DNA from: Quadrisphaera setariae
Lineage (GTDB): Bacteria; Actinomycetota; Actinomycetes; Actinomycetales; Quadrisphaeraceae
Direction of reading: 5' to 3'
DNA: 64,000 bases
Assembly: GCF_008041935.1 (NCBI RefSeq)
Contig: NZ_VKAC01000010.1
Location: forward strand, 1-64,000
Shown here piece by piece: positions 31,178 to 49,213 of this stretch. Positions within the stretch are counted from its first letter, which is position 1. Every line of letters begins with the position of its first letter. Both the position numbers and the translations under genes were made by a program. The notes under the pieces are model-generated. The model searched no databases. It was not told where the DNA came from and saw nothing but the letters and a program-made list of their open reading frames with translations.

Positions 31178-31188
31178 GGCGGTGCCGC

Positions 31189-31632
31189 TCAGGCGGTCCG
31201 GCGCGTGCGCGTGGCCCAGACGACGCCCAGCAGCACGGCGGCCGTGCCGAGGTGGAGCGCGTGGTCGGGGCTGTTGAGCGCGAGCGGGTCCGCGTGGCCG
31301 CCCATGACGAACGGGCCCACGAGCCCCAGGAGCAGGAAGACCACCCCGACGAGGCGGTCGACGCCGCGCGCGGTCTCGGTGCCGAGCACCGCGCCCACGA
31401 GCAGCGCCGCCCCCAGCCCGAGGTGGGCGACGTTGTGCACCGGGTTCACCTGGAACACCAGCAGGGTCTCGCTGTGGTGCATCGACCACGACGTGACGCC
31501 CGTGAGCACGAAGCCGGCCACACCGACGAGCAGGTACACCGCTCCCAGGCCCGCACCGGCCAGGCGCACCGGTGTCCAGCGGTCGCGGCCCGCGCTCTCG
31601 ACGTCGGCGCGCGGGCTGGTGGTGGAGGACAT
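31189..31632 (-). CDS. DUF4383 membrane protein
   Basis: This 147-residue protein has four membrane segments and the DUF4383 pattern LLVFQVNPVHNVAHLGLG in its second segment, common in actinobacteria; function unknown. It is the first gene of the c-di-GMP operon. A sigma-28-like promoter ends 8 bases before its ATG, and no ribosome-binding site precedes it, so the transcript is likely leaderless. Confidence 0.82.
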   Translation of the reverse strand: MSSTTSPRADVESAGRDRWTPVRLAGAGLGAVYLLVGVAGFVLTGVTSWSMHHSETLLVFQVNPVHNVAHLGLGAALLVGAVLGTETARGVDRLVGVVFLLLGLVGPFVMGGHADPLALNSPDHALHLGTAAVLLGVVWATRTRRTA

Positions 31633-31640
31633 GCCTCCTC

Positions 31641-31667
31641 ATCGGCACCGGAGGCGCTCCTGTTGAG
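31641..31667 (-). promoter_or_regulatory. FliA (sigma-28)-type promoter of the DUF4383/EAL/GGDEF operon
   Basis: On the minus strand CTCAAC, 15 bases, GCCGAT. The -10 element ends 8 bases before the ATG, so the expected transcript begins at or within a few bases of the start codon. The same pattern recurs before the flagellar and chemotaxis genes of this window. Confidence 0.7.
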
Positions 31668-31858: not shown

Positions 31859-33439
31859 GTGACCACGCGCTTCGCTGACCTGAGGATCACGGTCAAGCTC
31901 ACGATCATGCTGCTGTCGAGCGTGCTGCTCGTCGGCGGTGTGGTGGTCTCGGCCGTGGTCGAGCTGTCCGCTGCGCAGCAGCGCGCCACGGAGGTCAACT
32001 CCCAGCTCGACTCGGTGGCCGGCATCGCCCAGGTGCGTTCCAGCATGCTCACCGTGCGCGCTGACGTGCTGCGGGTGGCCCTCGCCGGCGCGGCCAAGAA
32101 GCAGAGCGCCGTGGACGGCCTGAGCAAGGACGTCACGGCCATGGGCGAGGCATGGAAGGCCTACGAGGCGACCGCCCCGCGGGCGGCGGAGCGGGACCGC
32201 ACCGCCCTGTGGTCCGCCGTGGAGGCGTGGGGGACCGTGCGCGACCAGTCCGTCGCGCTGGCGGTGGCCGGGGACGTGGACGGCTACAACGCGCTGCGCG
32301 ACAGCAAGGTCACCCCGGCTGCGGACGCCGCCTTCACCGCCCTGGACGCGGTGCAGAAGGCCGAGGCCGACTCCGCCGACGCCATGGTGGCCGCCGGTGA
32401 GGCGGCCTACCAGCACAGCCTCGTGGTGTTCGTCGCGGTGGCGGCGGTGGGTCTGGCCCTGGTGGTCCTCCTCGGGGTGCTCATCAGCCGGAGCATCACC
32501 CGCCCGCTCAGCCGCCTGCTGACCGTGGTGGTGGGGCTCGCCGAGGGCCGCCTCGACCAGCGCACCGGCATCACCAGCAAGGACGAGGTCGGCCAGCTGG
32601 CCGGCGCCACCGATGCGTCCATCGCGAACCTCGCCGCCGTCGTCCGCGACATCAGCCTGCGGGCCGACCACGTCTCCGTGGCCTCCGACAACCTCACGAC
32701 CGTCTCGACGCAGCTGTCGGCGGGCGCCGAGGAGTCCTCGGTGCAGGCGCGCCTCGTGGCCGCGGCCTCCGAGGAGATCTCCTCCTCGATGTCGACCATC
32801 GCCGCCGCCGGCGAGCAGATGACCTCCGCCATCGGGGAGATCGCCTCCTCCACGGCCACCGCCGCCCAGACCGCCGGTGCCGCCGTGGCCACCGCTCACG
32901 AGGCCGACGCGATCCTCGCTCGCCTGGGCACCTCCAGCCGCGAGATCGGCGAGGTCGTCAAGCTCATCACCTCCATCGCCGAGCAGACGAACCTGCTGGC
33001 GCTGAACGCCACCATCGAGGCCGCCCGGGCCGGTGAGCTCGGCAAGGGCTTCGCGGTGGTCGCCGGGGAGGTCAAGGAGCTGGCCCGCCAGACCGCCCAG
33101 GCCACCGACCAGATCGTGTCCCGCGTGCACACCGCCCAGGCCGACGCTGCTGACGCCACCGCGGCGATCCAGCAGATCAGCGAGGTCATCGGCCGGATCG
33201 ACGCCCTCCAGGCCACCGTCGCCTCGGCGGTGGAGGAGCAGTCGGCCACGACCGCCGAGATGGTCCGCAGCGTCACCGAGGTGTCCTCCGGCACCCAGGA
33301 GATCAGCGCCAACATCTCCGGCGTGGCCACCGCAGCGGTGCAGACCACGGCCTCGGCGTCGGAGACGACGACGACGGCAGCGGACCTCGCCCACACCGCC
33401 CGCGAGCTGCGTGCCGCCGTCGGCACCTTCCGCCTGTGA
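31859..33439 (+). CDS. Methyl-accepting chemotaxis protein
   Basis: This 526-residue chemoreceptor has an N-terminal membrane segment (about residues 15-35), a four-helix-bundle ligand domain, a second membrane segment (about 185-210), HAMP and the cytoplasmic signalling bundle. The kinase-contact hairpin is clear: [21 protein letters not shown] followed by [22 protein letters not shown]. The GTG start follows GAGGAG; the frame opens 32 codons earlier but that would include the promoter. It is the only chemoreceptor here and lies just ahead of cheA and cheW, its expected partners. Confidence 0.92.
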
Positions 33440-33509
33440 CCCCCGTCCCCCGACCAGCCGAACGACCCCGCTCCACCACCCGCCAGATCCAGGACTAGGA
33501 GGCAGCCGC

Positions 33510-35900: not shown

Positions 35901-35901
35901 C

Positions 35902-36363
35902 GTGGCTGCCCTGACGACGACGAAGAAGGCGGCGACGCGCACCGCTGGCGCGCAGATGCTGACCTTCGAGCTGGCCGGGGCCCTGTACGGCCTCGAGGTG
36001 GAGCAGGTGCAGGAGGTGCTGCGGGCCCAGAAGGTCACGCGGGTGCCGCTGCACAGCGCCGCCATCGCCGGCCTGATCAACCTGCGCGGTGAGGTGGTCA
36101 CGGCCATCGACCTGCGGGCGCGGCTGTCGCTGCCCCCGCGGCCGGAGGGCCAGGACGCGGTGAACATCGTCGTGCGGCTGCACGGCGAGTCGATCAGCCT
36201 CCTGGTGGACTCGATCGCGGACGTCGTCGAGCTCGACGACCGCAGTTTCGAGCCGGTGCCCGACACCCTGGACGGCGAGGTCCGCGACCTGCTGCGCGGT
36301 GCCTACAAGACCGAGGGCCGGCTGCTGCTGGCGCTCGACGTCCAGCGCGCCGTCGCCGGCTGA
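35902..36363 (+). CDS. cheW: Chemotaxis adaptor CheW
   Basis: This 153-residue protein is a single CheW domain (LTFELAGALYGLEVEQVQEVL, then LINLRGEVVTAIDLRARL and LLVDSIADVVEL). It bridges chemoreceptors and CheA. The GTG start is one base after the cheA stop and the gene is followed by a strong terminator, closing the MCP-cheA-cheW operon. Confidence 0.93.
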   Translation: MAALTTTKKAATRTAGAQMLTFELAGALYGLEVEQVQEVLRAQKVTRVPLHSAAIAGLINLRGEVVTAIDLRARLSLPPRPEGQDAVNIVVRLHGESISLLVDSIADVVELDDRSFEPVPDTLDGEVRDLLRGAYKTEGRLLLALDVQRAVAG

Positions 36364-36376
36364 CGCCACCGCCCGC

Positions 36377-36428
36377 ACGACGACGAAGGGCCCCCGACCT
36401 GCGAAGGTCGGGGGCCCTTCGTCGTCGT
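36377..36428 (+). terminator. Rho-independent-type terminator after cheW
   Basis: A 24-bp perfect stem (arm beginning ACGACGACGAAGGG) with a GCGA tetraloop. There is no U tract, as is usual in very GC-rich actinobacteria. Confidence 0.85.
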
Positions 36429-36573
36429 CGGGCCAGCCGCGGCTGCGGTTCGGCCGGCTCCGCTCGGTGGACGGCAGTGACGACGGTGTCGCCGTCACGC
36501 TGCGTTAGCGCGTCCGGGTGAGAACGCGATTCCGGCGGTGGTGGTGGCTCAGAGTGACCGGCAGACTCCGTCC

Positions 36574-37590
36574 ATGCCGTACACGCTCACCAGCGCCGCT
36601 ACTCTCGGCTACGACCTGGTCCGGATCCCCGGGGGCCGCCAGGTCGCCGCGGTCCTCGTCTCAGCCCTGCGCAGCGACGTCGCCGAGTGGGCGCTGCTCG
36701 CCGCGCACCACCCCCTGCGCACCGCGGACCCCACCCGCGACCCGTTCACGGCGGCCGAGGAGTCAGCGCTCGCCCGCGAGCTCGCCGGCGGTGCCCCGCA
36801 GCTGTCCTCGCTGCCCGCCGGCGTGAGCGACGCTGCGACGGCTGGACCGGGGGGTACGGCGGAGTCCGTCGAGAGGGCGCGACTGGCCGCGCTCGCCGAG
36901 CACCTGCGCAGCTCGATGGTCGGCAACGCCGCAGCCCTGGAGCGCCTCGTGCGCGAGGAGGCCGTCGACGCCGCGGGTGCCGCCGACCTCCTGGACCACG
37001 AGGACCCCTCGGGTGGCGCCGCGCTGGAGCGCGCGCTGGCCGCCGACGTCCTCGCGGACGCCGCCCTGGCCTGGTACGCCTCGCGGCAGCTGCCGACCGC
37101 GCTGCGCCGACGCCTCACCGAGCCCTACGAGCGCGCCGTCGCCGGAGCGGTCCCGGGCACCTTCGACCTCGCCCCCGACCCCGCCGCTCCCTGGGGGCCG
37201 GCGCTGACCGAGCTGCTGCGGGCCCTGCGCGACCTCGACGGTCCGGGCCGGCAGCGCTGGCGCGCCGCCGTCGACGCCGGGCGCGCCTCCGGGCGCGGCG
37301 CCGCCGGCCCGGGCGCCGAGCAGCGCTCCTGGTCGCTGGCGATGCACGACGCCTGCTGGGCCGCCCACGCGTCGGGGCGCACGGCAGCTGCGGCCGCTGC
37401 CCAGCTGCTGGCCGTGCAGGCCTTCCTCGACGGCGGCTTCACCGCCGCGGACGGCGCCACCGGCTGCTGGAACGCCGTCGCCGGGTGCGTCCAGGCGGCT
37501 CTGGTCGGCGACATGCTCGGCGAGGAGTCGCTCGAGGTGCTCTCCCGGCCCTGGCGGACCGTGACCGGCGGAGCGCTCGCCGGCCTCTGA
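36574..37590 (+). CDS. Hypothetical protein in the chemotaxis cluster
   Basis: I do not recognise this 338-residue protein. It is Ala-rich (with many Leu, Arg and Asp), predicted helical, without membrane segments or signal peptide; the N-terminus MPYTLTSAATLGYDLVRIPG is its most distinctive part and the C-terminal third has two Cys and two Trp. Codon use is typical of the genome, supporting a real gene. It lies alone between the cheW terminator and the promoter of cheB. An upstream GTG adds 12 residues; I prefer the ATG. No clear ribosome-binding site is seen for either. Confidence 0.6.
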   Translation: MPYTLTSAATLGYDLVRIPGGRQVAAVLVSALRSDVAEWALLAAHHPLRTADPTRDPFTAAEESALARELAGGAPQLSSLPAGVSDAATAGPGGTAESVERARLAALAEHLRSSMVGNAAALERLVREEAVDAAGAADLLDHEDPSGGAALERALAADVLADAALAWYASRQLPTALRRRLTEPYERAVAGAVPGTFDLAPDPAAPWGPALTELLRALRDLDGPGRQRWRAAVDAGRASGRGAAGPGAEQRSWSLAMHDACWAAHASGRTAAAAAAQLLAVQAFLDGGFTAADGATGCWNAVAGCVQAALVGDMLGEESLEVLSRPWRTVTGGALAGL

Positions 37591-37645
37591 GCCCCCCCAC
37601 CCCGCGGGGAGCGGCCGCACCTGACGAAGAAGTCGGGCGCGGTCG

Positions 37646-37672
37646 CTCAACCCGGCCACCTCCCCGGCCGAT
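37646..37672 (+). promoter_or_regulatory. FliA-type promoter of the cheB-cheR-cheY-cheX operon
   Basis: CTCAAC, 15 bases, GCCGAT. It lies 53 bases ahead of the cheB GTG, so this transcript has a leader that carries the AAAGGGGAGG site. Confidence 0.7.
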
Positions 37673-37724
37673 GGACTCAGTACGCCCCGCTCCGCGGGAC
37701 GCGCTGACAAAGGGGAGGCCCCGC

Positions 37725-38894
37725 GTGCCGCCGGTCAAGGTCCTCGTGGTGGACGACTCCGTCGTCATCCGCAAGATCGTCACAGACTGCCTTTCCGGTG
37801 ACCCGCAGGTCGAGGTCGTCGGAACGGCCTCCAACGGCCGTCTCGCCCTCGGCAAGATCGCGGCGCTGCGACCCGACGTGGTCACCATGGACATCGAGAT
37901 GCCCGAGATGGACGGCATCTCCGCGGTCAAGGAGATCCGCAAGACCGACCGGCGCCTGCCGATCATCATGTTCAGCACGCTGACCGACCGCGGCGCGAGC
38001 GCCACGCTCGAGGCGCTGAGCGCCGGGGCGTCGGACTACGTCACCAAGCCCGCCAACGTCGGCAGCGTCCAGGCCTCCATGGCGCAGGTGCGCGAGCAGC
38101 TGCTGCCCAAGCTGCTCGCCCTCACCGGCCGCAGCGCCGGCCCGGCCGCCCCCGTGTCGGCCCGCCCCGCCGGCGGTGCTGGCGTCCCCGCGGCGGCGCC
38201 CGTGGTGCCCGCGCCCCGCTCCGGCGCGGTGCGCACGCCGGCCGTCCTGGTTATCGGGTCCTCCACCGGCGGCCCCGAGGCGCTCTCGGCGGTGCTTCCG
38301 AAGCTCCCCCGCAACCTGCCGGTGCCCGTGCTCCTCGTGCAGCACATGCCGCCCCTGTTCACCACGCAGTTCGCAGCGCGCCTCGACCGCACCTGCGCGC
38401 TCGACGTGGTCGAGGCGAAGGACGGCACCCCGCTGCGCCCCGGCACCATCCACCTGGCCCCCGGCGACTGGCACCTCACCGTCTCCGGCGACAAGCGCGA
38501 CCGGCGCACCGTGCTGAGCCAGGCGCCGCGCGAGAACTTCTGCCGCCCCGCGGTCGACCCGCTGTTCCGCTCCGCCGTGGAGGCCTACGACGGCGCTGTT
38601 CTCGCCGTCGTCCTCACGGGCATGGGGTCGGACGGCAAGCTCGGCGCCGGCCGGGTCCGCGAGGCCGGCGGCTACGTCATCGCCCAGGACCGGGAGTCCT
38701 CCGTGGTCTGGGGCATGCCGGGCGCCGTGACCACCGCCGGCTTCGCCGACGAGGTCGTGCCGCTGGCCGGCGTGGCCGACGCCATCGTGAAACGCCTGCC
38801 GCGCGGCCCCTCACCCGCGGCCTCCAGCTCCACCCCCACGTCCGCCCCTGCCCCGTCCCTGACGGCCTCTTCCTCGCACGGAGGTGCGCGATGA
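37725..38894 (+). CDS. cheB: Chemotaxis protein-glutamate methylesterase/deamidase CheB
   Basis: This 389-residue protein has a receiver domain (phospho-Asp56 in VVTMDIEMPEMDG, Lys in YVTKPAN), an Ala/Pro linker, and the methylesterase domain with catalytic Ser (IGSSTGGPEAL), His (LLVQHMPPLFT) and Asp (GMGSDG). It removes methyl groups from the chemoreceptor for adaptation. The GTG has AAAGGGGAGG 6 bases upstream. A Ser/Pro/Thr-rich tail of about 30 residues is unusual. The stop overlaps cheR. Confidence 0.93.
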   Translation: MPPVKVLVVDDSVVIRKIVTDCLSGDPQVEVVGTASNGRLALGKIAALRPDVVTMDIEMPEMDGISAVKEIRKTDRRLPIIMFSTLTDRGASATLEALSAGASDYVTKPANVGSVQASMAQVREQLLPKLLALTGRSAGPAAPVSARPAGGAGVPAAAPVVPAPRSGAVRTPAVLVIGSSTGGPEALSAVLPKLPRNLPVPVLLVQHMPPLFTTQFAARLDRTCALDVVEAKDGTPLRPGTIHLAPGDWHLTVSGDKRDRRTVLSQAPRENFCRPAVDPLFRSAVEAYDGAVLAVVLTGMGSDGKLGAGRVREAGGYVIAQDRESSVVWGMPGAVTTAGFADEVVPLAGVADAIVKRLPRGPSPAASSSTPTSAPAPSLTASSSHGGAR

Positions 38895-39712
38895 CGCTCG
38901 CTGCAGCCGACTTCTCCTTCGTCTCGGACCTGGTCCGGCGGGAGAGCGCCATCGTCCTGGCGCCCGGCAAGGAGTACCTCGTCGAGGCCCGCCTGCTGCC
39001 CCTGGCCCGCAAGGCCGGCGCCGCCGGCGTGGCCGAGCTGGTCGAGAAGGCGCGCCGCCACCCCGACCGCGCCACCACGCAGAAGATCGTGGAGGCGCTC
39101 ACCACCAACGAGACCTCCTGGTACCGCGACGGGGACCCGTTCTCCCAGCTCGGGACCACCGTCTTCCCCCAGCTGCTCGCCTCCCGCCCCGCGGGGGAGA
39201 AGCTGCGGGTCTGGTCCGCGGCCTCCTCCAGCGGGCAGGAGCCGTACACCATCGCGATGGTCGCCTCCGAGACGATCCCCGGCGGCAGCTCGCGCCTGGC
39301 CATCACGGCCACCGACCTGTCGGTGGAGATGGTCGAGCGCACCCGCGCCGGGCGCTTCAGCCAGCTCGAGGTGAACCGCGGCCTGCCCGCCCCCATGCTC
39401 GTGCGCCACTTCTCCCGCGCCGGTGCCGAGTGGGAGGTCGCTCCCGCCCTGCGCGCCATGGTCACCGCGAGCCAGCTGAACCTCGCGCAGCCGTTCCCGC
39501 GGATGGGCCCGTTCGACGTCGTCTTCCTGCGCAACGTCCTCATCTACTTCGACGTGCCCACCAAGCAGGACATCCTGCGGCGCATCCGCGCCGTCATGAA
39601 GCCCGACGGGTGGCTCTTCCTCGGGGCCGCGGAGACGACGCTCGGCGTCGACACCGCCTGGGAGCGCGTCGCGCTCGGCCGCACGTCCGCCTACCGGCCC
39701 ATCGCGGGCTGA
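38891..39712 (+). CDS. cheR: Chemotaxis protein methyltransferase CheR
   Basis: This 273-residue S-adenosylmethionine-dependent enzyme methylates receptor glutamates. The helical N-terminal domain contains TTNETSWYRD, the SAM loop is WSAASSSGQEPYTIAM, and DVVFLRNVLIYFD is the CheR motif. No TPR tail is present. ATGA overlap with cheB indicates coupled synthesis of the adaptation pair. Confidence 0.93.
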   Translation: MTLAAADFSFVSDLVRRESAIVLAPGKEYLVEARLLPLARKAGAAGVAELVEKARRHPDRATTQKIVEALTTNETSWYRDGDPFSQLGTTVFPQLLASRPAGEKLRVWSAASSSGQEPYTIAMVASETIPGGSSRLAITATDLSVEMVERTRAGRFSQLEVNRGLPAPMLVRHFSRAGAEWEVAPALRAMVTASQLNLAQPFPRMGPFDVVFLRNVLIYFDVPTKQDILRRIRAVMKPDGWLFLGAAETTLGVDTAWERVALGRTSAYRPIAG

Positions 39713-39777
39713 CCACACCAACCACCACCACCCGCTGCAGGACCGCGGCGGGAGACACCACTGAGAAGGGGAGTGCA

Positions 39778-40158
39778 GTGCACGCTCTGGTGATCGACGA
39801 CTCGCGCGCGATGCGCCGGATCGTCGGCGGCATCCTCACGGACCTCGGGTACGAGGTCGAGCAGGCCGGCGACGGTCAGGAGGCGCTCGACCTCCTCAAC
39901 TCCGGGCGGGTCCCCGACCTCGCCTGCATCGACTGGAACATGCCCGTCATGGACGGGCTGACCTTCGTCACCCAGGTCCGGGCCAACCCGGCCTGGCGCG
40001 ACGTCACGCTCATGATGGTCACCACGGAGAGCGAGCACGGGCAGATCGTCCGGGCGCTGGCCGCCGGTGCCCACGAGTACCTCATCAAGCCGTTCACCCC
40101 CGACGCCCTGCGCGACAAGCTGTCGCTGCTGGGCCTGGTCCCGGTGGAGGTGCCGTGA
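39778..40158 (+). CDS. cheY: Single-domain response regulator, CheY-like
   Basis: This 126-residue receiver has the acidic pocket (IDDS), phospho-Asp52 (CIDWNMPVMDG), Thr (MVTTESE) and Lys104 (YLIKPF). Fed by CheA it should bind the flagellar switch. AGAAGGGGAG precedes the GTG. Its stop overlaps the cheX start. Confidence 0.88.
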   Translation: MHALVIDDSRAMRRIVGGILTDLGYEVEQAGDGQEALDLLNSGRVPDLACIDWNMPVMDGLTFVTQVRANPAWRDVTLMMVTTESEHGQIVRALAAGAHEYLIKPFTPDALRDKLSLLGLVPVEVP

Positions 40159-40646
40159 GCGAGGGACTGCTCGAGACGGGCGAGACCTGCACGATGACCG
40201 CGGCGGAGCTGCTCCCCGAGGACTCCGTGCGCGCCGTCGCCGAGGAGATCTGGCTGTCGTTCATCGGGGCGGAGGAGTTCCTGATCCCCCTCGAGGGTGA
40301 CGCGCCCGCCTCCCCCTACAGCGCCTGGGTGGGCATCGACGGCCCGTGGCGCGGCCGCGTGGTCATCACCTGCGACCGCAGCGTCGCCGAGGACCTCACC
40401 CGCTGCCTGCTCGGCGAGGAGACCGTCGGCGACCTGTCCCAGGACGACGTCGAGGACGGCTTCGGCGAGCTCGCCAACGTCGTCGGCGGCGGCCTCAAGG
40501 CCCTGCTGCCCGAGGCCTCCACGCTGACCCTGCCGCTGGTCGGTGCCACCCCGCCCGCCCACGGCGAGGACGCGCACGTCATCCAGAGCATCTGGCGCGG
40601 CCAGAGCGTCGACATCGTCCTGTCCAGCGTCCCGCTGCAGCACTGA
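40155..40646 (+). CDS. cheX: CheX-like CheY phosphatase
   Basis: This 163-residue protein has the CheC/CheX signature Glu-x-x-Asn (Glu105, Asn108 in DGFGELANVVGGGLKALL) which in that family removes phosphate from CheY. It is coupled by GTGA overlap to the cheY-like gene, which supports the pairing. A hairpin follows the stop. Confidence 0.78.
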   Translation: MSEGLLETGETCTMTAAELLPEDSVRAVAEEIWLSFIGAEEFLIPLEGDAPASPYSAWVGIDGPWRGRVVITCDRSVAEDLTRCLLGEETVGDLSQDDVEDGFGELANVVGGGLKALLPEASTLTLPLVGATPPAHGEDAHVIQSIWRGQSVDIVLSSVPLQH

Positions 40647-40661
40647 CGCCCTGACGCACCC

Positions 40662-40681
40662 GCGCCGGCACCAGCCGGCGC
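40662..40681 (+). terminator. Hairpin after cheX
   Basis: Perfect 8-bp stem GCGCCGGC/GCCGGCGC with an ACCA loop, 16 bases after the cheX stop. It may end or attenuate the cheB operon before the next receiver gene. Confidence 0.5.
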
Positions 40682-40764
40682 ACGCACCGTCCCGTCCAGC
40701 CCAGGGCGACCGCACCCCCCACCCACCCCCCCCGACCACCCGCACCGACCCGAGGAACCCCACC

Positions 40765-41643
40765 GTGAAGATCCTGATCGCTGACGACAGCCGCGTCATG
40801 CGGCAGATCGTGATCCGCACCCTGCGCCAGGCCGGCTTCGACGACCACACGATCGTCGAGGCCGAGAACGGCCGCGACGCCTTCGAGAAGGTCAGCAGCG
40901 AGGCACCCGACCTGCTGCTGTCCGACTGGAACATGCCCGAGATGACCGGCATCGAGTGCCTGCGCGCGCTGCGCGCGCAGGGCGCTGACGTGCCGTTCGG
41001 CTTCGTGACCTCCGAGGGCAGCGAGGAGATGCGCGCCGCCGCGGCCGCCGCCGGCGCGATGTTCCTCATCGCCAAGCCCTTCACCGCCGAGACCTTCGAG
41101 GCCGCCCTCGGCGGTGTCCTCGGGGGCGGCAAGGCCAGCGCCGAGCTCGAGCACGTCACCACCACCGGCACCGGCGCCACCCAGCTGCCGGTCGCCAAGG
41201 ACGCCCGCGACATGCTCGTGGGCCTCCTCAACAAGGAGTGCGCGTTCGCCGACGGCAACCGCCCCACCGGGCACGTCGGCGTCGTCGGCACCTACGTCGA
41301 CGCCACCACCAAGCTGCGCGCCGTCGTGGCGTTCGACCTGCCGATGGCGGCGTACGTGGGCGCGGCCATCGGTCTGCTGCCCCCGGGCGCCGCAGCCGAC
41401 GCCGTGGACGACAAGGAGCTGTTCCCCAACCTGCGCACCAACGCCGCCGAGGTCCTCAACGTCATGGCGGCGCTGTTCAACGTGGGTGACGCGGCGCACC
41501 TCAAGCTGTACTCCCACCACGCCCTCGGCGAGCAGGTCCCGGCCGACGTGCTCGGTCACCTGACCGCCCTCGGCGGTCGCGTCGACTGGTCGGTCTCCAT
41601 CAAGGGCTACGGCACCGGGACGCTCTCCATCGTCCTGGTCTGA
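40765..41643 (+). CDS. Response regulator with CheX-like C-terminal domain
   Basis: This 292-residue protein has a CheY-type receiver in residues 1-120 (ADDS, phospho-Asp54, Lys104 in LIAKPF), a linker, and a C-terminal domain of about 150 residues of unusual type. That domain contains NAAEVLNVMAALFN, i.e. Glu229-x-x-Asn232, resembling the active helix of CheC/CheX phosphatases, which would make this a receiver joined to its own phosphatase. The similarity is seen only in that motif, so it is tentative. The GTG start lies after GAGGAA. A strong terminator follows. Confidence 0.72.
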   Translation: MKILIADDSRVMRQIVIRTLRQAGFDDHTIVEAENGRDAFEKVSSEAPDLLLSDWNMPEMTGIECLRALRAQGADVPFGFVTSEGSEEMRAAAAAAGAMFLIAKPFTAETFEAALGGVLGGGKASAELEHVTTTGTGATQLPVAKDARDMLVGLLNKECAFADGNRPTGHVGVVGTYVDATTKLRAVVAFDLPMAAYVGAAIGLLPPGAAADAVDDKELFPNLRTNAAEVLNVMAALFNVGDAAHLKLYSHHALGEQVPADVLGHLTALGGRVDWSVSIKGYGTGTLSIVLV

Positions 41644-41678
41644 CGCCCGGCGGGGGCCGGGTGGGCCCTGGGCTGGAC

Positions 41679-41716
41679 GAGGAGGGGGTCGGACCTGCGG
41701 GTCCGGCCCCCTCCTC
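41679..41716 (+). terminator. Terminator after the receiver-CheX-like gene
   Basis: Stem of 17 bp (one G-T pair) beginning GAGGAGGGGGTC with a TGCG tetraloop, 35 bases after the stop. Confidence 0.85.
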
Positions 41717-41819
41717 CGCCGTCGTCCGCCGTCGTCCCGGCCCGTGATCCAGTCGTGCGTGACAGGCCGAGGAAGCCGAGTTCCCACACTGGGAGCGTCC
41801 GGGGTGTCACGATCCGTGC

Positions 41820-44800
41820 ATGGAGACTGAGCGCACCGGCCGTCCGGCCCCGCTGTCTCCCTGGGACGCCCAGGACGGCTACGGCAGCGGGTTGGACGAC
41901 GACTTCGGCGTGGACCTGGAGGTCACCACCGGTCCGCTGCCCGTGACGAGCCGCTCCGCGGCGCTGCCCTCGCCGCGCCGCCAGGCCGACCACACGGCGC
42001 ACGCGGCCCACCCGGCCTCGTCGGTCATCGACCTGCGGGACGCCCGGTCGGGCACCTCCTACGAGCGCGCCGCCGAGCTGCTGGAGCTCGCCCGCAAGCA
42101 CGCCGAGCAGGTGCGCTCCGAGGTCGAGGCCGAGGCCCGGGCCGCGCTGGCGCGCGCCACCGAGCAGGCCGACGCCGAGCGCGCCGCCGCCACCCTCCAG
42201 GCCGCCGAGGTGCTGCGCGCCGCCGAGGTCCGCGCCGCCGAGCTCGTGGCCGAGGCGGAGGCCGACGCCGAGGCGCAGGTGGCCCAGGTCTCCGACCGCG
42301 CCGAAGAGGGCCGCCGCGCCGTGCAGGCCGTCGAGGCCCAGCGCACCGCCCTGCGGGAGCAGGTGCTGCTGCTGCGCACCGACCTCGGGGCGCTGCGCGA
42401 CCGCCGCCACCAGATCGGCGCGGAGGCCACCGCGCTGCAGGACCGCATCAGCGTGCTGCGCTCCATCGCCGACGTCGTCGTCGAGGAGGCGACCGCCACG
42501 GCCGCGGCGCGGACCACCGAGCTGGAGAGCGTCGCGGAGCGCGCGCTGCGCAGCCGCGCCGACGCCGAGGCCGAGCGCGACCTCGTCCGCACCGAGACCA
42601 TGCAGGCGGTGGTGCAGGCCGAGGCCCGCCGCGACGCCGCCCTCGCCGAGGCCGAGCGGCTGCGCGCCGAGGCCGACGAGCGCGCCCACGAGGCCACCGC
42701 CGCCGCCCACCACCTGCTGGTGCAGGCCCGCGGTGACGCCGCCCAGCTGCACGACGACGCGCGGCACGACGCGGCGCTGCTGCGCTCGGCAGCCGAGCAG
42801 GACGCGCACGAGCTCCGCACGACGGCGGAGCGGGATGCGCACGTGCTCCGCACGCTCGCCGACCAGCAGGTCCAGGCGCTGCGCGACGTCGCTGCGCAGG
42901 ACGTCGCGCAGGTCCTCGCCCAGGCCCAGCAGGACGCCGACCACCTCCGCGCCGAGGCGGTGGCGCTCGCCGAGCAGCTGCGCGCCGAGGCCGAGGTGCT
43001 GCGCGCCGAGGCGGAGGTGCTGCGCACGGAGGCCGTGGCCGCCGCGCAGCTGTCCCGCACTGAGGCCAGCGCGCTCGCGGAGCAGGAGCTGGCCCTGGCC
43101 CGCGAGGCGATGGACGCCGAGCGCTCCGCGGTGCTGAGCGCCCTGCACGCCGAGCGGGAGAGCGTGCAGCGCGACCTCGAGCGCCTCATGGTGGCCGCCC
43201 GCAGCGAGGCGGAGGCGCTGCTGGAGCACGCCCGCTCCGAGTCCGAGCGGTTGATCGCTGTGGCCGAGGCCGGCGCCGCCAGCTCCACCGCGCACGCCGA
43301 TCGTGTGCTCGCCCAGGCGACCGCCGAGGCGGCGCGCCTGCGCGAGGAGGCCGACGCGCTGCGCGAGCGGTACCAGGTGGAGGTGAGCACCGCCCTGGAG
43401 GCGGCTCGCACCGAGGCCGCGCGCCTGCGCGAGGAGGCCGACGCGGTCCTGGCTGTCGCTCGCACCGAGGCCGACAAGCTCATCGCGAGCGCCCGCACCG
43501 AGGTCGGTGCGCTGCGCGAGCGCTCCCAGGCCGAGGCCCGCTCCACCCTAGAGGTGGCCAGCACCGAGGCCGCGCGCCTGCGCGAGGAAGCCGACGCCCT
43601 GCTCGCCGCCGCGCACGCCGAGGGCGCCGCGGCGCGCGAGCGCGCCCTCCACGAGGCCCAGGCCGCCCTCGAGGTGGCCCGCACCGCCGCCGGCGAGGTC
43701 CGCCGCGAGGCCGAGCAGCTGCTCACCGGCGCCCGCGAGCACGCCACCACCTCCCGCGACCACGTGCAGTCGCTGCGCCAGAGCGTCCAGCGCGACGCCG
43801 AGCAGGTGCTCGCCGAGGCCCGCCAGTCCGCCGCGGCGATGCGCGCTGACGCCGAGCAGGAGGTGCTGCGGTCCCGCGAGCACTCCACCGTCGCCCGGGC
43901 CGACGCGGAGACCCTCGTCGACGCCGCCCGCGACCGCGCCGCCGAGGTGCTCGCCGAGGCGCGCGAGGAGGTCGACAGGCTCTGGCGCACCGCCGCCGAC
44001 GAGGCCGACCAGCTGCACGCCGACACCGTCCAGGTGGCCGACCAGGTGATGGTGCAGGCCCGCGAGCAGGCTGAGGAGATCGCCGCGGCCGCTGCCTCCG
44101 AGGCCGCTGGGGTCCGCAGCGCCGCCCACCTGGCGGCGGACGAGCTGCTGTCCCGGGCGCGCGAGCGCGGTGACGCGCTGCTGCAGGACGCCGAGGGTGC
44201 GCGGCACGCCATCGAGGTCGGTGCCACCGCTGCGGCCGAGGCGATCGTCGCCGCGGCCCGCGCCGAGGCCGACCGCGTGGTCGAGGTCGCCACCGAGCGC
44301 GCCCAGCGCGAGCGATCGGCGTCCGAGACCGCCTCCGCAGCGGCCCGCGCCGAGGCCGCGGCCCAGGTGCAGCGGGTCATGCGCGACGCCGCCGCCATCC
44401 GCGACCGGGCCGCCGACGAGGTGGCGCAGGCCCGCGCCGAGCTGGCCGGCGCCCGCTCCGAGCTGAGCCGAGCGCAGGTCGAGGCGGAGGAGCTGCGCGA
44501 GCGCTCCGAGGCCGAGGCCCGCGACGTGGTGTCCAGCGCCGTCGCCCAGGCCAGCGAGCTGCGCGCCGAGGTCGCGCGCCTCAAGGAGCGCGCCCGCACC
44601 GCCCTCGAGGACGCCGAGGCCGAGGCCCGCGCGCTGCGCGACCAGGCCGAGGCTGCGGCGACCGCGCTGCGGGTGCAGACCGAGGCTGCGGCGACCGCGC
44701 TGCGGGAGCAGGCCCGCGAGGAGGCCGAGGCCCTCGCGGCAGCGGCCCGCGCCGACGCCGACCGCGTCACCGTGGCCGCCGCCCAGCACGCCTCAGCGCT

Positions 44801-45767
44801 GACCACCCAGGCCGAGAGCGACGTCGCCGCCGCTGCTGCGCAGGCCATCGCGCTCGTCGACGAGGCCCGCCGGCGCAGCCACGCCGAGGCCGCGGAGCAC
44901 ACGCAGGAGGTGCGCCAGCGCCTGGAGCAGCTCACCGAGCGCACCCAGGCACGGGCGGCCGCGCTGCTGGAGGCCGCTGAGCAGGAGGCGCAGACCCTGT
45001 GCGCGGACGCCCAGCACGAGCTGACCACGGCGGAGCAGGCCGCCGAGACGCTGCGTCGCAGCGCTGAGGACGAGGCCGCGGGCATCGTCGGCACGGCCGA
45101 GCAGCGCGCGTGCGAGCTGCTCGACGAGGCGGCGCGCCTGCGCGTCGACTCCCACGCGCAGGCCACCGCCGCGCTGGCCGAGGCCGAGCTCGAGGCGGAG
45201 CAGGTGTTCGTGTCCGCCCAGGAGCAGGCGGTCGAGCTGCTCCGCGCCGCGGAGCACGACAGCGAGCAGCTGCGCCAGGAGGCCGCCGAGATGCTCCGCG
45301 CCTCGCAGCAGGACGGTGAGCAGCTGCGCCAGCAGGCGGCCGACGAAGCTGCTCAGCTGCGGGCCAAGGCCCAGGCCGAGGCCGCAGCTGTCGCCGACGC
45401 GCTCGCCGCGGCCCGCGAGGAGTCCGAGCGGGTGCTGGCGCAGGCGCGCGCCGAGGAGGAGGCCGCTGCCGAGCGCGCCGCGGCCGAGCGCGCTGCCGCC
45501 GAGCAGCTGCGCGCCGAGGCCGAGGAGGACCGCCGCGCCGCGTCAGCCGAGCGCGAGCGGCTGCTCGCCGAGGCCGCCGCTGACGTGTCGCGCCTGCGCG
45601 AGGAGGCCGCCGCCGACGCCGCGCGCACCCGCGAGGAGGCGAAGGCCACCCTGGCGCGCGCCGCCGCCGACGTCGAGGCGCTGCGCGCACGCCACCTGCG
45701 CATCCTGTCGGAGCTCTCCGACCTGTCGGGCTCGGCGTCCTCGCTGGCCGCGGCCGACGGCGTCTGA
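41820..45767 (+). CDS. Giant coiled-coil protein, Scy/FilP-like cytoskeletal candidate
   Basis: This 1315-residue protein is about 75 disordered N-terminal residues (ending SSVIDLRDARSG) followed by an almost unbroken Ala/Glu/Arg coiled coil to near the C-terminus, where HLRILSELSDLSGSASSL ends the chain. No membrane segment or enzyme motif is seen. The segment AARLREEAD recurs at residues 504, 533 and 584, with a variant at 624: spacings of 29, 51 and 40, i.e. 7+11n. Mixed heptad/hendecad periods, often of 51 residues, are known in the Streptomyces polar cytoskeletal proteins Scy and FilP. It lies between chemotaxis and flagellar genes, each side bounded by a terminator. A role in placing the flagellum or chemoreceptor array is inferred. 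Confidence 0.8.
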   Translation: METERTGRPAPLSPWDAQDGYGSGLDDDFGVDLEVTTGPLPVTSRSAALPSPRRQADHTAHAAHPASSVIDLRDARSGTSYERAAELLELARKHAEQVRSEVEAEARAALARATEQADAERAAATLQAAEVLRAAEVRAAELVAEAEADAEAQVAQVSDRAEEGRRAVQAVEAQRTALREQVLLLRTDLGALRDRRHQIGAEATALQDRISVLRSIADVVVEEATATAAARTTELESVAERALRSRADAEAERDLVRTETMQAVVQAEARRDAALAEAERLRAEADERAHEATAAAHHLLVQARGDAAQLHDDARHDAALLRSAAEQDAHELRTTAERDAHVLRTLADQQVQALRDVAAQDVAQVLAQAQQDADHLRAEAVALAEQLRAEAEVLRAEAEVLRTEAVAAAQLSRTEASALAEQELALAREAMDAERSAVLSALHAERESVQRDLERLMVAARSEAEALLEHARSESERLIAVAEAGAASSTAHADRVLAQATAEAARLREEADALRERYQVEVSTALEAARTEAARLREEADAVLAVARTEADKLIASARTEVGALRERSQAEARSTLEVASTEAARLREEADALLAAAHAEGAAARERALHEAQAALEVARTAAGEVRREAEQLLTGAREHATTSRDHVQSLRQSVQRDAEQVLAEARQSAAAMRADAEQEVLRSREHSTVARADAETLVDAARDRAAEVLAEAREEVDRLWRTAADEADQLHADTVQVADQVMVQAREQAEEIAAAAASEAAGVRSAAHLAADELLSRARERGDALLQDAEGARHAIEVGATAAAEAIVAAARAEADRVVEVATERAQRERSASETASAAARAEAAAQVQRVMRDAAAIRDRAADEVAQARAELAGARSELSRAQVEAEELRERSEAEARDVVSSAVAQASELRAEVARLKERARTALEDAEAEARALRDQAEAAATALRVQTEAAATALREQAREEAEALAAAARADADRVTVAAAQHASALTTQAESDVAAAAAQAIALVDEARRRSHAEAAEHTQEVRQRLEQLTERTQARAAALLEAAEQEAQTLCADAQHELTTAEQAAETLRRSAEDEAAGIVGTAEQRACELLDEAARLRVDSHAQATAALAEAELEAEQVFVSAQEQAVELLRAAEHDSEQLRQEAAEMLRASQQDGEQLRQQAADEAAQLRAKAQAEAAAVADALAAAREESERVLAQARAEEEAAAERAAAERAAAEQLRAEAEEDRRAASAERERLLAEAAADVSRLREEAAADAARTREEAKATLARAAADVEALRARHLRILSELSDLSGSASSLAAADGV

Positions 45768-45800
45768 CGCCGCCGGCGACGACCACCGGACCGAGCAGGA

Positions 45801-45852
45801 CGACGACGAGGGCGCCGCGCGGGGGAGTCCCTGCGCGGCGCCCTCGTCGTCG
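45801..45852. terminator. Bidirectional terminator between the coiled-coil gene and fliW
   Basis: Perfect 20-bp inverted repeat (arm CGACGACGAGGGCGCC...) with a 12-base loop, between two convergent genes. Confidence 0.85.
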
Positions 45853-45877
45853 CTGTGGTGCTCTGCGCTGCCGCCCG

Positions 45878-46369
45878 TCAGGCGGACAGCGGCTGGCGCA
45901 GCGGGTAGGCGCTACCGGTCAGCACGATCTGCGCCGCCGTGCCGCTGTTGGGGTTGATGAGGATCGGCGCGAGCAGGTTCACCGTGGCCTGCTCCAGGGA
46001 CTCGGCCCCCGCGGCGTTCACCACGGTCAGGAGCAGGCCCTGGTCACCGGCGGGCAGGCCGACGGCGGCGCGGGAGACGGCGTCCATGGAGGGCGCGTAG
46101 TCCTCGAAGACGGCCTCGGGGGCCAGCAGCAGCAGGCTGACGCCGGCGTCCTCGACGCTGCGCAGGGAGAACAGCGGGCTGTCCTCCTCGACCTGCTCCA
46201 GCACGAAGCGGGTGAGGTGCTCCAGGCCCAGCAGCGGTGCGGAGAAGTGCACCTCGGGGCCGCTCACGACCACGGTCACCTGGTCCTCCACAGTCACCTG
46301 GTCCTGGACGGTGTCCTGCTGCACAGCGGTGCTCGTCATGTCGACCGTACTCCCCGTCGTCATCGTCAT
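45878..46369 (-). CDS. fliW: Flagellar assembly factor FliW
   Basis: This 163-residue protein has the FliW pattern: LLGLEHLTRFVLEQVEEDSPLFSLRS, then LLLAPEAVFEDYAP and the late NLLAPILINPNSGTAAQ. FliW binds flagellin and, when free, antagonises CsrA at the flagellin leader. The ATG overlaps the flgL stop; ATG codons 3 and 11 residues further in are other possible starts, since the first 30 residues are Thr/Val-rich and variable. It ends the flgN-flgK-flgL-fliW operon; csrA, its usual neighbour, is absent. Confidence 0.9.
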   Translation of the reverse strand: MTMTTGSTVDMTSTAVQQDTVQDQVTVEDQVTVVVSGPEVHFSAPLLGLEHLTRFVLEQVEEDSPLFSLRSVEDAGVSLLLLAPEAVFEDYAPSMDAVSRAAVGLPAGDQGLLLTVVNAAGAESLEQATVNLLAPILINPNSGTAAQIVLTGSAYPLRQPLSA

Positions 46370-47289
46370 CGGATGAAGTCCATCAGGCTGGTCTGCAGCG
46401 TCTTCGCCGTCACCTGCAGCGCCGCCTGGTAGGCCGTCTGCTGCGAGGTGAGGGCGATGACCGCCTTGGGGAAGTCGAGGTCCTGCACGTCCGAGAGCTG
46501 CTTGGTGAGGGAGACGTCGCGGTCGGCCACGGCGTCCTGAGCAGCCATCACCCGGTTCTGCCGCGCGCCGAGCTCGGTCGCGGCGGTGAGGACGACGGCC
46601 TGGCGGTCCTGCAGCTTGGTGAGCAGCGTCCGCGTGGTGGCGTCGTCACCGGTCTTGATGGCGGTGGACAGCCCCTGGAGCACCGTGAAGACGGAGGTGT
46701 CGGACCCCGAGTCGGCACCGAAGACCGCCGTGCCGTCGGTGTCGACGCGCACGGAGTCGTCGGGGCCGATCTGCCGCTGCACGGTGCCCGCCCCCGTCGT
46801 CGCCCACGCGAACGTCTGGGACCCCGCGGCACCGGACGCCGTGACGGCAGCGCCCGTGGCGGTGCCGGCGAAGAGGCTGCGGTCGGAGTAGGTGCTGTTG
46901 GCTAGGCCCTTGACGGCGGACAGCACCCCGTCCACCTCGGCGGCCAGGGCCGCGCGCGACGTCGAGTTCTGGGTGCCGCTGTTCAGGGCCTGCAGCGTGC
47001 GGTTGACCGCGACGTTGAGCTGCGCCGTGGTCGACTTCAGCGCGGTGTCGGTCGCGTTGAGCCACGCCAGGCCGTCGTCGGCGTTCTTGCCGTACTGCAC
47101 GTTGTCGCGCTGCAGGGTGCGCAGGCGCAGCGCGTCGACGGTGCCGGTCGGGTCGTCCGACGGCTTGTTGATGCGCTTGCCCGTGGAGATCTGCTCGTTG
47201 AGGGTGGCCATCGACGCCAGGTTGCTCTGCAGGTTCGCGAGAGACTGCTCCTGGATCGTCCGGTGGGTCACCCGGCTGAGTCCGCTCAT
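46366..47289 (-). CDS. flgL: Flagellar hook-associated protein 3 (hook-filament junction)
   Basis: This 307-residue protein has flagellin-like terminal helices: the N-terminal TIQEQSLANLQSNLASMATLNEQISTGKRINKPSDDP and the C-terminal LSDVQDLDFPKAVIAL with QTAYQAALQVTAKTLQTSLMDFIR. It forms the last junction ring before the filament with FlgK. It lies 5 bases after flgK and overlaps fliW. Confidence 0.93.
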   Translation of the reverse strand: MSGLSRVTHRTIQEQSLANLQSNLASMATLNEQISTGKRINKPSDDPTGTVDALRLRTLQRDNVQYGKNADDGLAWLNATDTALKSTTAQLNVAVNRTLQALNSGTQNSTSRAALAAEVDGVLSAVKGLANSTYSDRSLFAGTATGAAVTASGAAGSQTFAWATTGAGTVQRQIGPDDSVRVDTDGTAVFGADSGSDTSVFTVLQGLSTAIKTGDDATTRTLLTKLQDRQAVVLTAATELGARQNRVMAAQDAVADRDVSLTKQLSDVQDLDFPKAVIALTSQQTAYQAALQVTAKTLQTSLMDFIR

Positions 47290-47294
47290 GTCCG

Positions 47295-48722
47295 TTACCT
47301 CCCGACCAGACCGGTCTTGTTGATGAGGGTGTCGAGCGCCTCGTCCACGGACGTGAGCACCCGTGCAGCGGCCTGGTAGGCGCGCTGCAGCGTCAGCAGG
47401 TTGGCGGTCTCCTCGTCGAGGGAGACCCCGGTCTCGGACTGCTGGGAGGCCACCGTGTTGCTCAGGGTGGCGGCGGTCGCCGTGGTGCGCGACGTGGCGC
47501 CAGCGGCGTCGGCGCCGAGCTGGGAGACGTAGGTCGCCCAGACGTTGTCGGGGCTCCCGGTGGCCTTGCCCAGCTTGCTCATGGCCAGCGCCACCGACGC
47601 GTCGGCGGAGCCGAGCGTGGAGTTGCCGGTGCGCAGCGCCGTCGTCCCGGGCGTGGTGGGCGCACCGGCGAGGGAGACCGCCACGGTGAGCCCGGTGACG
47701 CCCGAGGCCGTCGACCCGGTGAAGAACGGCTGCACCGGGTCAGCCGGTGTGGCCGAGGGGTTGAACGCGGCGGCGTAGGCGGCGTTCACCGAGGTGGAGA
47801 CCGCGGCCGCCACGGCGTCGTACTTGGCGGACGCCGTGTCGAGGGTGCCGCCGACGCGCAGCGCGTCGAGCACCCCGGCCAGCTGGCCGCCGCGCACCGA
47901 CGCGGGCGTGCCGTCGGCGAACTGCAGGGTCGGGGAGGCGGTCGGGGGCAGCGTGTTGGTCGTCGTGGGCGCCGAGACCTGGACGGTGTTGAAGGAGCCG
48001 TCCTGCACCAGGGCGTTGGAGCCGAGGTAGACGTCCACCACCCCGTTGGCCGCCTGCACCGTGGTGGCGCCGGTCAGCTCGGACAGGCGCGTCACCAGCT
48101 GGTCGCGCTGGTCCATGAGCTCGTTGGCGCTGTTGCCGGCGGCGACCGTCGCCTTGATCTGCTTGTTGTAGGTGGCGACGGCCTGGGTGGTGGCGTTGAC
48201 CTCGTTGGCGAGCGACGTCGCCTGCGTGCGCTGGTCGTTCCACATCGACACGACGCCGGCGGAGGAGTTCTTCAGCGTCTGGGCGACGTCCTGCGCGGCG
48301 GAGATGACCACCGACTTCGCGGAGTCCTTGGTGGGGTTGGCCGCCAGGTTGGCGAAGGCCGACCACATCGCGGAGAGCTTGCCGGACAGCGCCGTGTCGC
48401 TGGGCTCACCGGTGAGGTCCTGCAGGTTGTTGAGGACGTCGGCGCGGGAGGCGAGGTCGGCGTGCAGCGAGGTCTGGGAGCGCACCTGGGCGTCCCAGAA
48501 CGAGCTCGCCAGGCGCGAGACGCCGGTGAGGACGACACCGTTGCCGCCCTGCTGACCGGTGGTCATGAGGCCGACGGCGGTGGTCGCCGCCTGGAGGTCG
48601 ACCCGCTGGCGGGTGTAGCCCGGAGTGGCCACGTTGGCGATGTTGTTGCCCGTGACGTCCATGGCCTTGCGGGTCGCCTGAAGCGCGGACAGCGCCGTCG
48701 ACAGGCCGGAGAAGGAGCTCAT
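47295..48722 (-). CDS. flgK: Flagellar hook-associated protein 1
   Basis: This 475-residue protein has the rod/hook N-terminal motif (TGNNIANVATPGYTRQRVDLQ), a long variable middle, and the C-terminal helix ETANLLTLQRAYQAAARVLTSVDEALDTLIN. It forms the first hook-filament junction ring and is exported by the flagellar type III system. The ATG is set just ahead of the conserved SGLSTALSALQATRKAMD helix; it follows flgN by 11 bases. Confidence 0.94.
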   Translation of the reverse strand: MSSFSGLSTALSALQATRKAMDVTGNNIANVATPGYTRQRVDLQAATTAVGLMTTGQQGGNGVVLTGVSRLASSFWDAQVRSQTSLHADLASRADVLNNLQDLTGEPSDTALSGKLSAMWSAFANLAANPTKDSAKSVVISAAQDVAQTLKNSSAGVVSMWNDQRTQATSLANEVNATTQAVATYNKQIKATVAAGNSANELMDQRDQLVTRLSELTGATTVQAANGVVDVYLGSNALVQDGSFNTVQVSAPTTTNTLPPTASPTLQFADGTPASVRGGQLAGVLDALRVGGTLDTASAKYDAVAAAVSTSVNAAYAAAFNPSATPADPVQPFFTGSTASGVTGLTVAVSLAGAPTTPGTTALRTGNSTLGSADASVALAMSKLGKATGSPDNVWATYVSQLGADAAGATSRTTATAATLSNTVASQQSETGVSLDEETANLLTLQRAYQAAARVLTSVDEALDTLINKTGLVGR

Positions 48723-48733
48723 GTGGGGGTCCT

Positions 48734-49213
48734 CTACAGGGATCGGTCGACGAGGTTGGCGGGGGCGGCGGAAGTCATCCGACCCGTGGGGGCGTAGGTC
48801 TCGAGCGTCCCGTTGATGCTCAGGAGCGTCTCGTGGGTGGCCCGCGCAGCGGCGGACAGCACGATCCGGTTGCTCTCGGAGAGGCGGCGGATCTCGTCCG
48901 TGACCTCCACCAGGGCGTCGCGGTGGGCGAGCAGCAGCTCGCTCCACGGCTCGCCGGCGGCCGTCGCGAGGTCCTTCAGGCTGGGGTTGGGACCCAGACC
49001 GACGGACTCGGCGTACGCGTCCACCTCCACGGCGCGCAGGAGCTCGCTCTGGCGCACCTGCTCCAGCACGATCTCCACCTCGCGGGTGGCGTGCGCCACC
49101 CAGCGGGTGCGCCCGCTGTTCAGGACCAGCTGCTCCTCCTCGAGCTTGAACAGCAGCAGGTCGAGCTGCTCGCGCTCGCGCCACAGCACGTTGGACACCT
49201 CGGCGACGCCCAT
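48734..49213 (-). CDS. flgN: FlgN-type export chaperone for FlgK/FlgL
   Basis: This 159-residue helical protein has the FlgN pattern (LWREREQLDLLLFKLEEEQLVLNSGRTRWVAHATREVE) and heads the operon with its clients flgK and flgL. I use the ATG with GAGGAGG 6 bases upstream; a GTG two codons earlier lies too close to that site. A sigma-28-like promoter with a 14-base spacer lies about 45 bases upstream. Confidence 0.88.
   Translation of the reverse strand: MGVAEVSNVLWREREQLDLLLFKLEEEQLVLNSGRTRWVAHATREVEIVLEQVRQSELLRAVEVDAYAESVGLGPNPSLKDLATAAGEPWSELLLAHRDALVEVTDEIRRLSESNRIVLSAAARATHETLLSINGTLETYAPTGRMTSAAPANLVDRSL

Follow-up and report, generated by a model that had tools for sequence, protein, structure and literature searches.

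Why should a bacterial genome keep a very long coiled-coil protein among its chemotaxis and flagellar genes? The question is raised by a stretch of 64,000 nucleotides from Quadrisphaera setariae (contig NZ_VKAC01000010.1, positions 1 to 64,000; the window), in which one gene encodes such a protein of 1315 residues, here called the giant. An earlier note, made from the letters of the window, had proposed that it could be a cytoskeletal organiser that places the flagellum or the chemoreceptor array. The analysis led elsewhere. By profile comparison the giant is a derived relative of FilP and Scy, filed as neither, and the best explanation of the evidence as a whole, in which we place roughly as much trust as doubt, is a Scy-like scaffold for polarity and segregation within the internal cell skeleton, not a part of the motility machinery.

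41820..45767, plus strand: giant coiled-coil gene, motility-locus copy, 1315 residues (open frame, codon statistics, Fourier rhythm)

The gene itself is real, as the earlier note had it. The frame begins at 41820, with no in-frame ATG, GTG or TTG upstream; GC at the three codon positions (0.875/0.532/0.961) is that of coding DNA, and over 1186 codons aligned with the orthologue of a congener third-position differences dominate (574 versus 343 and 301). Alanine makes up 28.5% of the protein, a count taken over all its residues, inside the core and outside it. A Pfam scan of the giant matched zero families at E 0.01. Six Quadrisphaera genomes, G000 to G005, were compared, G000 being that of the window and G002 that of the orthologue. 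Together they hold eight copies of the giant family, of which the seven complete ones range from 700 to 1901 residues. Each genome has one copy apart from, or not linked to, flagellar genes (6/6; the main copy), and only G000 and G002 have a second one between the che genes and fliW-flgL-flgK (2/6; the motility copy).

42057..42503, plus strand: most conserved coil segment, residues 80-228, related to the initial part of the FilP rod and without the 51/14 rhythm (profile comparisons)
45660..45734, plus strand: conserved C-terminal cap, residues 1281-1305 (ALRARHxRILSxLSxLS), which aligns with the C-terminal end of FilP (hhalign)

The relationship to FilP is seen at both ends of the protein. 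A search of 396 genomes of the order with a profile of the giant's head coil (A3), at most nine candidates being scored per genome, gave matches in 16: the six Quadrisphaera genomes at E 2.3e-60 or better, and ten others at E 1e-6 to 9e-5. Each of these ten weak matches (10/10) falls within a FilP-type protein that has RGYD or RGYE, nine of them at residues 97-104 and one at residue 408. Aligned by hhalign to a profile of 15 FilP-type proteins (five from Quadrisphaera, ten from elsewhere), the head coil scores 60.0 and the C-terminal segment 53.5, versus 40.2 and 32.7 for the best of 30 block shuffles and 36.8 and 31.2 for the reversed profile; the ten proteins from outside the genus alone give 55.8 and 49.5. 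With hmmsearch the FilP profile gives the seven complete copies totals of 14.0-69.9 bits, the best decoy totals being -107 (40 phase-block shuffles), -200 (40 residue shuffles) and -71 (reversed). By best single domain six copies reach 20.2-40.8, and the 40 block shuffles at most 9.5. The likeness to Scy and FilP asserted in the earlier note therefore holds up for the window's copy, which stands above the 30 hhalign shuffles, the 40 hmmsearch shuffles and the reversed decoys, and for six of the seven complete copies; it does not amount to membership of the group. That group is defined by an N-terminal RGYDxxEVD followed by a heptad coil (PMC9858780), and GYD is absent from the giant. Its matches to the FilP profile set in no earlier than FilP position 75, well past RGYD near residue 16. 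DivIVA with EGYDQDEVD is present in 6/6 genomes and a FilP-like protein with RGYDPxQVD in 5/6.

42630..45629, plus strand: rod with a mixed 7/11-residue rhythm, residues 271-1270 (Fourier)
43356..43656, plus strand: 153-bp (51-codon) tandem repeat, 2.0 copies, 75% matches (tandem-repeat search)

The rods of Scy and FilP have a 51-residue period, and a period of about 51/14 was found in the giant as well. Fourier analysis of 1221 residues, in which hydrophobic residues plus alanine were scored, gave a single peak, of power 39.5, at 3.639 residues per turn (half-height 3.633-3.644), far above the highest of 100 residue shuffles (12.0, on a grid four times coarser than for the giant). The half-height range contains 40/11 and 51/14 and excludes both 7/2 (power 1.3) and 11/3 (0.8). 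The mixed 7/11 period that had been read from the letters was thus confirmed. Peaks of the other six complete copies lie at 3.637-3.653, with powers of 19.7 to 60.6, and neither ratio is matched by that of the G000 main copy (3.653, half-height 3.645-3.661). The rhythm is missing from residues 71-270 and 1171-1315 of the giant, and because the phase of the rod drifts slowly relative to an exact 51/14 the period is given as a range and not as one ratio. Since 3.639 is close to the 3.63 residues per turn of an undistorted helix (PMC9858780), the rod should be nearly untwisted.

The 7+11n spacing rule proposed for the segment AARLREEAD survives in part. Exact copies stand at residues 504, 533 and 584, with spacings of 29 and 51; the third spacing, of 40, leads to residue 624, where the weak match AGEVRREAE shares 4/9 letters. 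The six copies with at least 6/9 matches are only mildly in phase, 7/15 pairs falling within 0.15 turn where 4.5 are expected. At the DNA level the G002 orthologue carries the 153-bp repeat 4.3 times at 93%. Repeat arrays scoring over 140 have units of 11, 18 and 51 codons in the window copy and of 11, 29, 36, 40, 51, 69 and 102 codons in the orthologue, each within 0.12 turn of whole turns, a rule not always followed by weaker arrays (units of 5, 6, 8 and 9 codons, among others). To judge from the orthologue's 51-codon tandem repeats, the rod may change in length by whole phase-preserving units.

41820..42053, plus strand: head, residues 1-78, presumably unstructured to judge from its composition, in place of a DivIVA-like domain (sequence)
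42024..42044, plus strand: VIDLRDA, residues 69-75, a rare short motif shared with ParB, the FilP-like protein, a Ser/Thr kinase and a cellulose-synthase-like enzyme (motif searches)

What might link the giant to the cell pole is a short motif in its head. VIDLRDG or a variant (VIDLRDA, VIDLRES, MIDLRDG, AIDVRDG) is found in 8/8 copies, and [VI][ILV]DLR[DE] occurs 5 times, always in the giant family, in the 564,742 residues of all frames of at least 100 residues, antisense included, of 18 loci chosen around the giant family and che/flg. A motif of the VIDLR[DE] type also stands in the C-terminal tail of 4/5 Quadrisphaera FilP-like proteins and in 0/10 other FilP-type proteins. Across the six genomes a DNA pattern for the motif gave 32 sites, and the reversed pattern none. 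Five of these sites belong to the window's own genome and fall in the giant, the FilP-like protein, ParB, a Ser/Thr kinase that has a beta-propeller, and a cellulose-synthase-like glycosyltransferase; 17/32 sites overall belong to a polar or segregation set (giant 3, FilP-like 2, ParB 6, kinase 2, glycosyltransferase 3, ScpA 1). In ParB, VIDLRDGA is invariant within an otherwise variable linker (5/5 aligned, the sixth read in the sequence). The ParB frames with VIDLRDGA are L120:4458-5891 and those of loci L096, L099, L102, L106 and L108, and the ScpA of G002 (L109:454-1560) ends in VIDLRDQ followed by an Asn/Pro-rich tail. The string VIDLRDG was not found in the literature searched.

The architecture of AfsK includes a beta-propeller. 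In Streptomyces the tip complex consists of Scy, FilP and DivIVA, and Scy binds ParA (excerpt of PMC5157956); DivIVA is phosphorylated by AfsK, and overproduction of CslA rescued colony growth under DivIVA-induced hyperbranching (excerpt of PMC13432765). VIDLR[DE] may tentatively be taken as the docking tag of a coccal polarity hub, one that would join the giant and the FilP-like protein to ParB, to a kinase built like AfsK and to a cellulose-synthase-like enzyme, an idea that we rather doubt. If it is true, counterparts of the Streptomyces tip complex would reach the same place by means of one peptide.

Several observations weigh against such a tag and against the polar scaffold built on it. 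The remaining 15/32 sites lie elsewhere: three GyrA-like, three cysteine-desulfurase-like and nine that occur once each, including RNase-J-like, LuxR-like and siderophore-synthetase-like frames, an exonuclease, and frames that are unknown or spurious (the names ParB, kinase, glycosyltransferase, ScpA and exonuclease come from profile matches of one or two members of each, and the other names from sequence reading). The DNA pattern allows for some of the codons only, and some giant copies escape it; the argument from the motif is in part post hoc. The kinase and the glycosyltransferase match the AfsK and CslA of Streptomyces by domain type only, the kinase scoring 78 of 1300 bits with NCBIfam AfsK and the glycosyltransferase 126 of 699 with CelA. 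The DivIVA sequences of Quadrisphaera lack VIDLR[DE], and according to the excerpt of PMC5157956 Streptomyces ParB binds neither Scy nor DivIVA directly.

With these reservations, the history of the scaffold might be pictured as follows. An ancestor would have lost the N-terminal, DivIVA-like RGYD domain; such a loss need not block assembly, because FilP without its first coil kept the same striation repeat (excerpt of PMC6599971). The rod would have lengthened by gain and loss of phase-keeping units (11, 18, 29, 40 and 51 residues), to yield a predicted dimeric, nearly untwisted coiled-coil rod about 0.18 micrometre long (1221 residues at 0.15 nm). Such rods would assemble with their own kind, and perhaps with a canonical FilP-like protein, joined through the C-terminal cap. 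The head motif would dock the giant, ParB, the FilP-like protein, the kinase and the enzyme on one polar or division-site hub, possibly DivIVA, and the giant would thereby serve a tetrad-forming coccus as a scaffold on which the envelope grows and chromosomes are segregated.

The first alternative dispenses with the hub, and makes of the giant a FilP-type rod for mechanical strength only, without a link to pole or segregation, VIDLR[DE] being coincidental or generic. FilP does give Streptomyces hyphae their full mechanical strength (excerpt of PMC4255298), the range of lengths in the family suits a passive rod, and the motif pattern at sites in unrelated enzymes would be accounted for. Coincidence explains less well why the five sites of a single genome fall on the giant, the FilP-like protein, ParB and two protein types with polar members in Streptomyces, or why the motif does not vary in the ParB linker. 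A purely mechanical rod is on this balance unlikely.

A second alternative removes the ancestry as well: the giant could be an Ala/Glu/Arg-rich coil without FilP/Scy descent, its likeness the convergent outcome of composition and helix rhythm. On this side stands the NCBIfam Scy model (NF041483, an equivalog), with which the giant scores 60.3 bits versus a cut-off of 1040. The main copy of G002, moreover, is at decoy level by best domain (8.4 versus 9.5), its total of 14.0 being weak, and the genus's own five FilP-like proteins, taken alone, score 40.0 with the C-terminal segment and only 32.7, again decoy level, with the head coil. A BLASTP comparison of the giant with its own DivIVA found nothing, and hhalign of A3 with that DivIVA gave a probability of 9.5%. 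These points tell against the preferred ancestry too: the scores with the genus's own FilP-like proteins do not establish that the family descends from the filP gene of the genus. Because of the G002 main copy and the own-FilP head-coil score, convergence was rated slightly higher than it had been, and it is still improbable: all seven copies outscore the 40 phase-block shuffles in total, six of them in best domain as well, and both protein ends beat the 30 shuffles and the reversed profile in hhalign.

Closer identities were also tried. Orthology with Scy was rejected on the missing RGYD and a score below the curated cut-off; the NCBIfam Scy model had 0 matches on the window's own genome, and among the neighbours scanned at either G000 locus there was none of filP, crotonyl-CoA carboxylase and methylmalonyl-CoA epimerase, the genes beside which members of the Scy/FilP group lie. 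A direct origin from DivIVA was set aside, nothing beyond weak DivIVA/Wag31 profile matches of the head coil being found (21.3 and 19.9 bits). Among solved structures the best head-coil match was a phage tail needle (E 0.0014), read as a generic coil.

As far as searched, the giant family is restricted to Quadrisphaera. Among 59 related genomes, matches are confined to the 6 that belong to the genus, the other 53 having none, and a species collection scanned with two peptide patterns gave 5 loci, all in this genus. The contigs concerned in that collection are of Q. granulorum DSM 44889, of Quadrisphaera sp. INWT6, of an Actinomycetales metagenome-assembled genome and of a record labelled Streptomyces sp. 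NP160; the last of these (L035) falls within the same genus as Quadrisphaera. The surroundings of the main copy are partly alike in five genomes, with zero matches there to the che or flg proteins of the window. Among the neighbours scanned in G000 are a desaturase, two FAD oxidoreductases and PKD-domain, MarR and MFS proteins. The copy in G005 is truncated, its contig being 3 kb long, and the tree groups it with that of G003 (98/96). The motility copies form one clade (100/100), separate from the main copies, and unlike these they lack a Pro/Gln-rich linker and an APRPRxGS-type tail. Whether the long-branched G002 main copy joins the motility clade is favoured neither way (p-AU, the P value of the approximately unbiased test, 0.406).

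The setting of the motility copy is given by the following features.

40543..41643, plus strand: response regulator gene, upstream neighbour, start uncertain (profile scan)
41679..41716, no strand: 17-bp hairpin with one G-U pair, between the response regulator gene and the giant (folding)
45801..45852, no strand: 24-bp hairpin with one G-U pair, between the convergent giant and fliW (folding)
45878..46369, minus strand: fliW, convergent neighbour of the giant (profile scan)
46366..47289, minus strand: flgL, named from its place and from flagellin-type N and C domains (profile scan)
47295..49184, minus strand: flgK (profile scan)

The placement between chemotaxis genes and flgN-K-L given in the earlier note stood in outline, the profile scans having found cheA, cheW, cheB, cheR, cheX and the response regulator upstream and a convergent fliW-flgL-flgK downstream. 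Its isolation by terminators was borne out only as far as the two hairpins that flank the giant, whose folded stretches have z-scores of -3.3 (17 bp) and -5.4 (24 bp); consensus scans for intrinsic terminators, like those for sigma-70 promoters, found zero. A plasmid collection compared with the che genes gave nothing beyond generic similarity. Further upstream, a 609-residue frame (29837-31666) ahead of a gene for a methyl-accepting chemotaxis protein is 49-64% identical to relatives and has zero Pfam matches at E 0.001.

41777..41818, plus strand: conserved 5' element, GGAAGTNCCAC-N17-TGTCACGATCCGTG, with 3 mismatches in the window copy (pattern search, 8 upstream regions compared)

Directly upstream of the giant, the 42-bp 5' element ends one base before the ATG and is conserved in 8/8 copies. 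At no more than 3 mismatches it has exactly 8 sites in the six whole genomes, one per giant copy, and the reversed element has 0. It is a candidate promoter or operator specific to the giant family, possibly that of a leaderless transcript. A motility promoter was ruled out for it, the sites lying at the giant family alone.

The genes around the motility copy do not share the grouping of six other genes. CheX, the response regulator, FliW, FlgL and FlgK put G000 beside G002 (100/100), a grouping with G001 and G004 being rejected (p-AU 1.6e-35); so do CheA, CheB, CheR and CheW (100/100; other grouping, p-AU 0.000187). The six other genes place G000 with G004 (97/98), and for them a forced pairing with G002 is at the borderline of rejection (p-AU 0.0497). 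FlgK and FlgL of G000 and G002 are 79-80% identical, versus 39-45% to the other four genomes; flagellin-type queries whose frames were uncertain are left out of account. The genes that group with G002 lie in 33033-49184 of the window and 4428-20000 of L016. I read this as a che/flg allele block, with the giant inside, that was exchanged or long retained, which would give linkage and no proof of function; the copy beside the flagellar genes would be a paralogue carried within that block.

It remains to ask whether the motility copy was co-opted to organise the flagellum or the chemoreceptor array. In the two genomes where it occurs it does lie between che and fliW-flgL-flgK, it comes solely with one divergent flgK/flgL/fliW allele type, and it differs from the main copies in clade, linker and tail. 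The remaining genomes speak otherwise. In G001, G003, G004 and G005 the response regulator and fliW matches are convergent in the same gene order, their ends about 500-660 bp apart, with zero matches to the giant protein at the junction, and flgK is present in 6/6 genomes. A remnant of the giant there was sought and rejected: the protein search was empty, and permissive blastn and tblastx gave five short tblastx matches (24-34 bits) in 1/4 intergenic stretches, judged to be chance in GC-rich DNA. The motility copy bears the 5' element of its own family, which is seen at no other gene in the six genomes, and the main copy is without che or flg around it in five of them. Conservation beside che and flg genes, which the earlier note had thought worth checking among motile actinobacteria, thus extends to two of six Quadrisphaera genomes, zero family members having been found outside the genus. 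The genus is listed, moreover, as non-motile cocci in tetrads (excerpt of PMC7472656, Table 3). Quadrisphaera genomes carry che and flg genes (window 33033-49184, L016 and L043-L046) despite this listing. A role in placing flagella is not supported, because the copy unlinked to flagellar genes is universal in the genus and the che/flg copy is confined to two of six genomes although flgK is present in all six, and co-option of the motility copy is the least probable of the readings considered.

The scaffold reading has consequences for how such proteins evolve. A tetrad-forming coccal genus has a FilP-like protein plus giant rods that lack the group-defining domain, and these giants suggest that rod and cap are able to evolve apart from the DivIVA-like head. 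If the docking tag is true, the polar recruitment of ParB, kinases and wall enzymes would become testable through one peptide.

How, then, does the giant compare with known systems? With DivIVA and Wag31 it shares the weak head-coil matches; it differs in having no GYD domain and in coexisting with a separate DivIVA in its own genome. With FilP it shares an Ala-rich rod of mixed 7/11 rhythm whose start and C-terminal end are related above decoys. Unlike FilP it is without the RGYD domain, it is about 2-6 times longer than the FilP-like proteins of Quadrisphaera (328-345 residues from just before RGYD), and it exists in 5/6 genomes besides such a protein. FilP is described as absent from coccal organisms except one Kineococcus, and orthologues of Scy are reported from some further mycelial lineages, almost always next to filP (excerpt of PMC4255298). 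Scy has also been called exclusive to Streptomycetales, a FilP duplicate with a lengthened rod, and it begins right before RGYD (excerpt of PMC9858780). The giant differs from Scy in lacking RGYD and in its position, its copies lying on contigs C10 and C8 and the FilP-like gene on C16. What it has in common with the Scy of Streptomyces is a very long, near-hendecad rod and a partial match to the NCBIfam model, and it probably works like Scy.

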